From a bacterium (GTDB lineage Bacteria; RBG-13-66-14), in the NCBI GenBank assembly GCA_035528375.1, contig DATKYS010000015.1, positions 1-16,404 of the forward strand: a DNA stretch of 16,404 nt. The letters are read 5' to 3'. Below the pieces are notes generated by a model. It did not search any database. It saw nothing but the letters and a program-made list of their open reading frames with translations, and was not told the origin of the DNA. This document shows positions 5,133 through 7,029 of this stretch, piece after piece; the stretch's first letter is position 1; each line of letters begins with the position of its first letter. Both the position numbers and the translations under genes were made by a program.

Positions 5133-5528
5133 TCAGCAAGGGCAGAACGTTCCGAAGTCTTCCCGCGGTTCGTCGCTCGAGCCCGAGGCCACCTCGTCCA
5201 GCCACAGCCACCAGCGACTCCGTTTGGGTGAGGGCGCGATGTGGTGGCGCAGGGGGCCGTAGTACGACAGGCGGTACTCGGCCATCACGTCGCGGAGCCG
5301 GTTGATGCGGTTGTCGGAGAACCGGGGTTCGGAAAAACGGCGGTGCACCTCGCCGTCGGCCTCGGCCAGAATCCGGCGCATGCGTCGGGTCTGTTCGGGG
5401 TCGCGGCCCTTCAGGCCCATGTCGCAGATGTCCCGGGCCAGAAGGCTGACCTCGAACTCGTAACGCTCGTCGAAGGGCCCGAGCCGCCGCCAGACCTCGC
5501 ACTTGTTTTCCAGACTTGCCAGGTCCAT
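5133..5528 (-). CDS. Hypothetical protein, 131 residues
   Basis: I do not recognise a family. The product is 131 residues, soluble in appearance and rich in Arg and Glu, with long probable helices (residues about 15-75), an aromatic patch SRWWLWLDE near residues 104-112 and a C-terminal FCPC with two cysteines. It shows no signal peptide or membrane segment. Support for coding: codon-position GC pattern like its neighbours, an ATG start, and GGAGG about ten bases upstream. A short perfect inverted repeat (5552-5568) sits just upstream of the ribosome site and might be an operator or leader hairpin. It is flanked by repeat clusters and has no operon partner. It could be lineage-specific; a wrong call is possible but less likely. 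Confidence 0.65.
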   Translation of the reverse strand: MDLASLENKCEVWRRLGPFDERYEFEVSLLARDICDMGLKGRDPEQTRRMRRILAEADGEVHRRFSEPRFSDNRINRLRDVMAEYRLSYYGPLRHHIAPSPKRSRWWLWLDEVASGSSDEPREDFGTFCPC

Positions 5529-5568: not shown

Positions 5569-5679
5569 GTTTTTGGTGAAAATTAAATTAGCAATATCCG
5601 TGCCCGGCATGTAGATGACGCAGGGGCGTGTGCCCTGACCCACCCGTTATTTTACCCCTCACCCCCGAGCTGCGATGAC

Positions 5680-5746
5680 GTAGGGGCGGGTCTTTAGACC
5701 CGCCCGCGGGCGACCGTGGAGGACTCGTCCTACCGGTCGCCCCTAC
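5680..5746. repeat. Two-hairpin repeat unit with nested stem
   Basis: The left hairpin is GGGCGGGTC/GACCCGCCC. The right hairpin has an outer stem GGGCGACCG/CGGTCGCCC and an inner stem AGGAC/GTCCT; the unit ends CCCCTAC. Compared with 1597-1635 and 5902-5940, both outer and inner stems have changed with pairing kept. Confidence 0.8.
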
Positions 5747-5814
5747 GGGGTTTATTCGTGGATGACGTAGGGGCGGGTGTCCACACCCGCCCATCGCCAA
5801 TCGAAACCCTAAAC

Positions 5815-5870
5815 GTAGGGCGGGGATTTGCCAGGGGCATAGCTCGCTTCGCTCGGTTCTCATCCCCGCC
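5815..5870. repeat. Hairpin repeat with long internal insert
   Basis: The arms GTAGGGCGGGGAT and ATCCCCGCC enclose about 34 bases, far longer than the 2-6 base loops of sister copies. The insert contains its own short palindrome (GCGAAGCGAGC-type) and is not found elsewhere in the window. Confidence 0.6.
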
Positions 5871-5901
5871 GTTTTCGCCCCACACCCCGGGTTGCGATGA
5901 T

Positions 5902-5940
5902 GTAGGGCGGCCCCGTGGGATGCATCCCCTGCGGGCCGCC
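5902..5940. repeat. Nested hairpin repeat
   Basis: The outer stem GGCGGCCC/GGGCCGCC and the inner stem GGGAT/ATCCC enclose a central GCAT-type palindrome. The inverted orientation of almost the same sequence forms the right half of 1790-1867, differing mainly in the central bases. Confidence 0.75.
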
Positions 5941-5965
5941 GCGTTACCGACGTTCCCAACCCCGA

Positions 5966-6003
5966 CCCTCACCCCAGCCCTCTCCCTAGAAGGGAGAGGG
6001 GGG
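5966..6003. repeat. CCCTCACC-type dispersed repeat
   Basis: The unit starts CCCTCACCCCAGCCCTCTCC, followed by an inverted arm GGGAGAGGG across a short TAGA loop. It is the most symmetric member of its class in the window. Confidence 0.65.
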
Positions 6004-6107
6004 ACCGCTTCACCCCCCTCCCGCGTTTGTGATGACGTAGGGGCGGGTGTCCACACCCGCCCGCAGGCCAATTGTTCTGCGCATATGTTTAGGTTCCTCC
6101 CACATGT

Positions 6108-6137
6108 AAAAAAGGAGCCAGCGCAGGCCGACCCCTT
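6108..6137 (-). terminator. Probable intrinsic terminator after the PIN gene
   Basis: Read on the minus strand, an eight-pair stem (GGGGTCGG against CTGGCTCC, with several G-U pairs) and a six-base loop are followed by six T. It begins about 20 bases after the PIN stop codon. The wobble pairs make it weaker than the nfnB terminator. Confidence 0.5.
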
Positions 6138-6157
6138 ACATACACATATATATCAAA

Positions 6158-6589
6158 CTACGGTATCATTTCTACACTATTTGGATAACACACATCATAA
6201 AAATCTTTTTTATTATAAGTTATCAAGTAGTTTATTTTGTATTCACCTGAAATATCATCAATAATGAGTCTTAAAACTCTATCCACTAAACTTAATTCTC
6301 GTTTATCAATTAATGCAATTGTATTTTCAAGTGCAGAATCACGATACTTTGAATCATCAATTTTAGTCCATTCTATCTCGCTTAACTTAAATTTAAACTG
6401 TGTAAGTAACCACGGTTTTTTAACTAAACGTGTGCGTAAAACCTCATAAAAAATGGGCCACGGGATTAGAATATATTCGTCTTTGACAATATCCCATAAG
6501 TCGGTTGCAGATTGATGATACCCATCGTCCCCTTTATCGAGAAGCGCGATCCAAAAGCCAGCATCAGTCATAAAAAATGATTTTGCCAA
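6158..6589 (-). CDS. PIN-domain protein, VapC-like probable ribonuclease
   Basis: A 143-residue protein with PIN-domain architecture. PIN toxins such as VapC cleave RNA with a Mg-binding acidic cluster. Visible here: Asp9 in FMTDAGFWIALL at the end of strand 1; Glu49 in IFYEVL; Asp103 in LSLVDR; and LITYNKKDF at 122-130, where Asn126 stands where many VapCs have Asp, with Asp129 close by. The start chosen is TTG at 6589, one base after the upstream stop and eight bases after GAGGA; this gives the short lead-in normal for PIN proteins. ATG at 6571 is an alternative but leaves only two residues before the key Asp. The gene is very AT-rich, unlike its neighbours, which indicates acquisition. It is co-transcribed with the 108-residue gene, as toxins follow antitoxins, but toxicity is inferred only. 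Confidence 0.78.
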   Translation of the reverse strand: MAKSFFMTDAGFWIALLDKGDDGYHQSATDLWDIVKDEYILIPWPIFYEVLRTRLVKKPWLLTQFKFKLSEIEWTKIDDSKYRDSALENTIALIDKRELSLVDRVLRLIIDDISGEYKINYLITYNKKDFYDVCYPNSVEMIP

Positions 6590-6590
6590 A

Positions 6591-6917
6591 TCAATAATCC
6601 TCTTCAGGAGTCGTCCGAATGGCGTACCCAAACCACGGTGCATGCCTTTTACGACCACCAAATATAAACCCCCCCCTTAGACTCTTTTTCACTGTGTCGT
6701 AGAAGATGATGTAAACTCTATCCTTTTTCCTTAAATTAACATTCGCTTCCAAATCACTTTTTATTTCTTCAATGAGATCATGTCGAAATATATAAACGAA
6801 GGAAGCTACACTATCTCCACACTCCCTGGCTTCATGGGAGTCCAACCAGAAATACATACTTTCGTAATCGCCTTCTATACCTAGATCGTAAGAAAGCCAA
6901 ATTCGTTGTTTTTCCAT
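6591..6917 (-). CDS. Small Cas2/VapD-like-fold candidate upstream of PIN gene
   Basis: A 108-residue protein whose family I cannot name with certainty. The order of predicted elements is strand (RIWLSYDLG, 5-13), helix (DYESMYFWLDSH, 17-28), strand (CGDSVASFVYIF, 33-44), helix (LIEEIKSDLEANV, 48-60), strand (DRVYIIFYD, 66-74), then a basic, glycine-rich tail (GGFIFGGRKRH, 82-92). This resembles the ferredoxin-like fold of Cas2/VapD, including a YD pair at the end of strand 1 and Ser36 before strand 2 (inference). It does not look like a classic VapB-type antitoxin. ATG start with GGAGGAGG seven bases upstream; promoter at 6942-6970. The PIN gene begins one base after its stop. AT-rich, so probably acquired together with it. 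It could be an antitoxin, a partner nuclease or an accessory protein. Confidence 0.72.
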   Translation of the reverse strand: MEKQRIWLSYDLGIEGDYESMYFWLDSHEARECGDSVASFVYIFRHDLIEEIKSDLEANVNLRKKDRVYIIFYDTVKKSLRGGFIFGGRKRHAPWFGYAIRTTPEEDY

Positions 6918-6941
6918 GATCGTACCTCCTCCAACAAATAC

Positions 6942-6970
6942 AGCTTAACCTACTAGATTCTTTTCGTCAA
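6942..6970 (-). promoter_or_regulatory. Sigma70-type promoter of the two-gene AT-rich island
   Basis: On the minus strand a TTGACG -35 box (6970-6965) and a TAAGCT -10 box (6947-6942) are separated by 17 bases. The leader to the ATG at 6917 is only about 18 bases and contains the GGAGGAGG site. The promoter sits five bases from the nfnB terminator, so the island is transcriptionally insulated. Confidence 0.72.
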
Positions 6971-6974
6971 CTTT

Positions 6975-6999
6975 AAAAAGGGCCGGCCAACGCCGACCC
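6975..6999 (-). terminator. Intrinsic terminator after nfnB
   Basis: Read on the minus strand, stem GGGTCGGC/GCCGGCCC (eight pairs, one G-U) with loop GTTG is followed by five T. It starts about 30 bases after the nfnB stop codon. Its GC-rich stem resembles the dispersed hairpins, so a repeat may have been recruited as terminator. Confidence 0.82.
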
Positions 7000-7029
7000 C
7001 GTAGGATTTCAACTGAATTAGACCTTCTG

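Follow-up and report, generated by a model that had tools for sequence, protein, structure and literature searches.

Toxin-antitoxin modules of the VapBC type join a PIN nuclease to an antitoxin with an RHH, AbrB, HTH or Phd DNA-binding fold, and the PIN-associated antitoxins covered in section 9 of PMC2701414 are all DNA-binding types. In VapKSC, a VapC-like PIN toxin is held by a small non-VapB protein, a STAS-domain antitoxin, and a kinase is encoded by a third gene (PMC13373217). The Cas2 fold is known in two roles, as a scaffold in CRISPR adaptation and as the toxin VapD; in the two-gene VapXD operon, the Cas2-like protein is the toxin (PMC7180214). BPSL1038, from a Cas2/VapD nuclease sub-family, has a non-CRISPR Cas2 fold, keeps the Asp and is described as a nuclease in its own right, with no PIN partner mentioned in the relevant sections of PMC10491678.

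The locus analysed here resembles VapBC in that a PIN nuclease with four acidic residues is encoded second in a tight two-gene operon, behind a small first gene, and in its mobile and sporadic distribution. However, the first gene is predicted to encode a protein of Cas2-like fold, and the criterion for VapBC proper, an antitoxin with a known VapB DNA-binding fold, is not met. Like VapXD, the unit has a Cas2-fold protein within a two-gene operon, although here the probable toxin is the PIN protein, and the Cas2-like protein probably serves as its antitoxin; with VapKSC it shares a VapC-like putative toxin next to a small non-VapB protein. We consider it likely, with a probability of about 0.72, that the unit is a type II toxin-antitoxin module, spread by horizontal transfer, whose antitoxin has the Cas2 fold. 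That the Cas2-fold protein acts as antitoxin is an inference, and toxicity and rescue data are lacking.

The window, that is, the whole stretch of DNA analysed, comprises 16,404 nucleotides of a 2.63-Mb genome (G000), which belongs to a small phylum with 14 genomes, G000 included, available for comparison. The unit occupies positions 6158-6917 on the minus strand, between nfnB, whose identity is backed by Pfam, and a PmbA/TldD pair. Its features are as follows.

6591 to 6917, minus strand: first gene, putative antitoxin of predicted Cas2 fold, 108 aa, ATG start (open reading frame, model, homologues)
6158 to 6589, minus strand: second gene, VapC-type PIN nuclease and putative toxin, 143 aa, TTG start (open reading frame, model, homologues)
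6925 to 6932, minus strand: strong Shine-Dalgarno sequence GGAGGAGG, 7 nt upstream of the first gene's ATG (read from sequence)
6942 to 6970, minus strand: possible weak promoter, TTGACG-17-TAAGCT (read from sequence)
6112 to 6137, minus strand: terminator downstream of the PIN gene, a hairpin of 11 pairs with a run of T (folding z -4.4)
About 6980 to 7001, minus strand: terminator between nfnB and the pair (folding z -2.1)

The two genes form an operon. A single base (6590) separates the stop codon of the first gene from the TTG of the PIN gene, for which an in-frame ATG at 6571, 18 nt inside the TTG, is an alternative start. The pair has a G+C content of 0.357 against 0.678 in the remainder of the window, and the drop takes no more than a few hundred bases at either end. 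None of 200 shuffled sequences folded as well as the terminator at 6137-6112, and 8 of 200 folded as well as the hairpin on the nfnB side (about 7001-6980). The promoter candidate, with a 17-nt spacer, matches at five of six positions in the -35 element (TTGACG, 6970-6965) but at only three of six in the -10 element (TAAGCT, 6947-6942), and it fell below the threshold of a consensus promoter scan and was absent from its output. This promoter, inferred from sequence alone, is the weakest detail of the unit's description. The first-pass annotation had described an AT-rich two-gene unit with a sharp G+C drop at both flanks, genes one base apart, a terminator of its own and insulation from nfnB by another, all of which held; its promoter with a 17-nt spacer is the least well supported.

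The unit is real and not a chance arrangement, because the same two genes adjoin in 18 loci. These intact pairs come from several phyla, and the Cas2-like gene is always first. In all 16 aligned loci it is directly followed by the PIN gene, with a gap of -38 to +6 nt, which meets the type II criterion of two adjacent small genes that usually overlap or touch; the two intact pairs beyond this alignment are L048 and L050. A single-sequence search of genome contigs with P0001 gave no match and a two-row profile gave 13. The hosts of these 13 pairs include Desulfamplus, Hydrogenedentes, Desulfonema, Gammaproteobacteria, Rhodomicrobium and Tariuqbacter genomes, as well as Terriglobia, Methylococcaceae, Desulfomonile, Desulfurobacterium and others. 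Two candidate loci, L018 and L019, were discarded as false positives; the gene concerned encodes a protein of 808 aa. In 13 host genomes and 297 Desulfobacterota genomes, PIN profile hits above 100 bits all adjoin a Cas2-like gene, and PIN proteins without such a neighbour score about 41 bits or less. Furthermore, the distance matrices of the Cas2-like and PIN families correlate (r 0.67; 0 of 5000 permutations). The pairing is conserved, and the two families share a joint history. Both genes are under purifying selection, with dN/dS values between L007 and L008 of 0.10 for the Cas2-like gene and 0.19 for the PIN gene, and a value of 0.12 for the Cas2-like gene between L049 and L048.

The distribution is sporadic and mobile. 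In plasmid records, the only homologous pair found is that of pWTk445, a conjugative plasmid of Advenella kashmirensis; phage records gave no homologue. One pair in a viral contig is cargo of a P2-like prophage, surrounded by phage primase, regulator, tail and tape-measure genes. In 15 of 16 loci the pair exceeds its flanks in A+T content (mean 12 points). Across four sampled groups, the Cas2-like gene occurs in 6/297, 1/398, 2/68 and 1/199 genomes (0.25-3%); the last three of these counts consist of nothing but the seed genomes. The 13 further genomes from the phylum of the window gave no copy. With this mobile, sporadic spread and a PIN toxin with four acidic residues, two further type II criteria are met. 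No constant third gene was found across the loci, whose neighbours are unrelated and mostly housekeeping, including S2, EF-Ts, RRF, 6PGD and FTHFS. As a separate observation, the pair in L011 (3227-5380) sits between pyrH and frr, usual neighbours in a housekeeping operon.

Such surroundings leave room for another explanation, an ordinary RNA-processing operon without toxicity that chance gene transfer has distributed. RNA processing is also among the functions of PIN proteins, and copies of the pair often lie between housekeeping genes. Against this reading stand the sparse and patchy spread over several phyla, the carriage by a plasmid and a prophage, the loss of the PIN gene alone described below, and the fact that a relative has a HigBA module at this site, and we regard it as very unlikely. 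In that family relative (L126, G012:C116, 3124-4552), the spot between PmbA/TldD and nfnB holds an AT-rich HigB toxin gene with an HTH/M78 partner, and the spot could be a hotspot at which toxin-antitoxin modules insert. The contig of the closest relative, G009, ends at nfnB, so the spot beyond it is not covered.

The second protein has a VapC-type PIN nuclease fold with four acidic residues; that it cuts RNA and is toxic is inferred. The protein from the window falls below the Pfam match level, and 12 of its 16 homologues match Pfam PIN. A sequence profile of the family picks VapC AF1683 and VapC20 among solved structures, and the structural model (pLDDT 92) matches VapC20 at Z 15.3, AF1683 at 13.9 and other VapC proteins at Z 11-15; VapC20 of Mycobacterium tuberculosis is the nearest solved PIN. 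The acidic set D9, E49, D103 and D129 is invariant in 16 relatives, including one at only 18% identity.

For the 108-residue protein, the criterion of a Cas2-type ferredoxin-like fold is met by model prediction. The AlphaFold model (15 sequences) has a pLDDT of 88, and of at least 93 over residues 1-80. All of the top 23 Foldseek matches in the PDB are Cas2 structures (probability 0.84-1.00, E from 0.009 up), with type I-E and I-F forms in the highest ranks, and in a VIA realignment rows 1-42 are all Cas2 (Z 8.9-6.4), with the first non-Cas2 row at Z 6.1. BPSL1038 reaches a VIA Z of 6.0, and VapD is a weak structural match at Foldseek rank 50. The order of elements is that of Cas2, namely strand, helix, two-residue strand, strand, helix, strand, strand, including the short strand before strand 3. 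Nonetheless, no Foldseek E-value is lower than 0.001, and ferredoxin-like folds often reach middling Z scores. D11, C33, G34, P94 and W95 are invariant in 16 homologues. D11 ends strand 1 where Cas2 and VapD have their catalytic Asp, and the VIA ranges align it with D10 of Sso Cas2; S36 follows 25 residues later, the same spacing as from D10 to S35 in Sso Cas2 (PMC10491678, PMC5815122).

Profile-profile comparison does not prove homology to Cas2 at the sequence level. Against classic Cas2, 4 of 200 shuffles reached the score, but a reversed control scored higher; against type I-E Cas2 there was nothing, with 176 of 200 shuffles as good. In the same test, two accepted Cas2 families also failed to find each other clearly. 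Pfam gave no match for the 108-residue protein, Pfam and NCBIfam scores of the Cas2-like protein were scattered and at chance level, no antitoxin family in either library matched it, and BFVD gave no convincing match. In contrast to CRISPR Cas2, the protein has an invariant PIN partner and a conserved C-terminal APWxGY, and gave no significant sequence match to Cas2 families, and neither cas1 nor a CRISPR array was found in the loci searched. No CRISPR-like array was found in the 18 loci, and Cas1 was absent from the best 25 families per library, in two libraries, for 56 flanking genes, the flanks covering only a few kb.

The first-pass annotation had read the pair as a small Cas2/VapD-like protein with a PIN nuclease. 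The PIN assignment and the Cas2 part held, as did the Asp after strand 1 and the Ser recalling Cas2, whereas the resemblance to VapD is weak. It had also stated that a predicted fold unrelated to Cas2/VapD, or homologues that are not adjacent, would refute it; both checks were run and neither did so, the predicted fold being Cas2-like and the homologues adjoining on mobile or sporadic DNA. It had proposed a toxin-antitoxin or defence pair of a new kind; the toxin-antitoxin reading is well supported by genome evidence, without experimental data.

Decayed copies bear on which protein is the toxin. In L047 the PIN gene is truncated and the Cas2-like gene intact; in L049, a syntenic orthologue of the intact L048 and L050, the PIN gene is frameshifted and the Cas2-like gene intact; and L051 has a lone, divergent Cas2-like gene. 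Loss that hits the PIN gene fits expectation if the PIN protein is the toxin, although there are only three such cases, and one may reflect an assembly error. In the three syntenic loci, the pair is flanked by lspA and an ileS-like aminoacyl-tRNA synthetase gene.

The roles might also be reversed, with the Cas2-fold protein a toxin like VapD and the PIN protein either restraining it or acting as a second RNase. There is a precedent in VapD, a Cas2-like RNase known to act as a toxin (PMC7180214), and D11 is conserved. However, it is the PIN gene that decays, the PIN protein retains its four acidic residues, the Cas2-like gene stands in first position, the usual antitoxin place, and VapD is only a weak structural match. 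We consider this reversal very unlikely.

Under the preferred toxin-antitoxin reading, the Cas2-fold protein would be made first from the same message, its translation probably coupled to that of the PIN protein, and would dimerise like Cas2 and keep PIN proteins inactive in a complex. The contact to the PIN protein may be the C-terminal R-K-x-APW-x-GY segment. This segment, in a stretch that holds the invariant P94, W95 and G97, is among the most conserved parts of the protein, yet it has a pLDDT of only 52-57 in the lone model, a combination that suggests ordering on a partner. The C-terminal part of E. coli Cas2 binds Cas1. When expression stops or the partner is lost, as under stress, during phage infection or after the element itself is lost, the PIN protein would be freed, cut rRNA or tRNA and stop growth; we propose that growth arrest on loss would keep the unit and its carrier in the population. 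Against this reading, the Cas2 active-site Asp is kept in all 16 relatives, which is more than a plain inhibitor needs, and no autoregulatory operator came to light. With D11 conserved, the Cas2-like protein could have a second activity, as a nuclease or sensor.

Such an activity is central to a further explanation, a two-nuclease anti-phage defence module in which an Asp-dependent Cas2-fold nuclease or nucleic-acid sensor scaffolds the PIN effector or releases it upon infection. In its favour, D11 is invariant at the catalytic Asp position with S36 25 residues on, one copy is prophage cargo, and VapC-like toxins act in anti-phage modules such as VapKSC. Against it, the mostly housekeeping neighbours form no defence islands, and PADLOC gave no match. 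We consider this explanation unlikely; it overlaps with the toxin-antitoxin reading and does not exclude it. A bolder version, which we also doubt, would make the Cas2-fold protein both a dimeric scaffold and an Asp-dependent sensor for the PIN nuclease, as Cas2 scaffolds Cas1, in an immunity module triggered by infection and independent of CRISPR, perhaps similar to the ancestral setting of Cas2 recruitment.

Pfam, PADLOC and PHROGs recognise neither window protein, and Pfam, NCBIfam, PADLOC and PHROGs hold no entry for a Cas2-fold partner of a PIN toxin. The pair is undescribed in the literature searched; TADB was outside the scope of this search, so an earlier description is not excluded. 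If the toxin-antitoxin reading is true, antitoxin to a PIN toxin would be a third role of the Cas2 fold, the list of VapC partners would extend past DNA-binding proteins, and there would be a testable link from toxin-antitoxin modules to the origin of Cas2. Several of the pairs are short and complete, and hence quickly testable.

Additionally, we made some observations on the DNA around the unit. A 131-residue open reading frame without a Pfam match lies beside it on the minus strand (window 5133-5528). The two flanking terminators (window 6110-6138 and 6975-7003), 865 bases apart, are 76% alike, and the arm GGGGTCGGC is present in both on the minus strand; conceivably, the twin terminators mark an insertion into the nfnB terminator together with a copying of that terminator. 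Finally, a palindromic intergenic repeat of 41 bases, based on GATGACGTAGGGGCGGGTGTCCACACCCGCCC, occurs four times in window 5611-6068.
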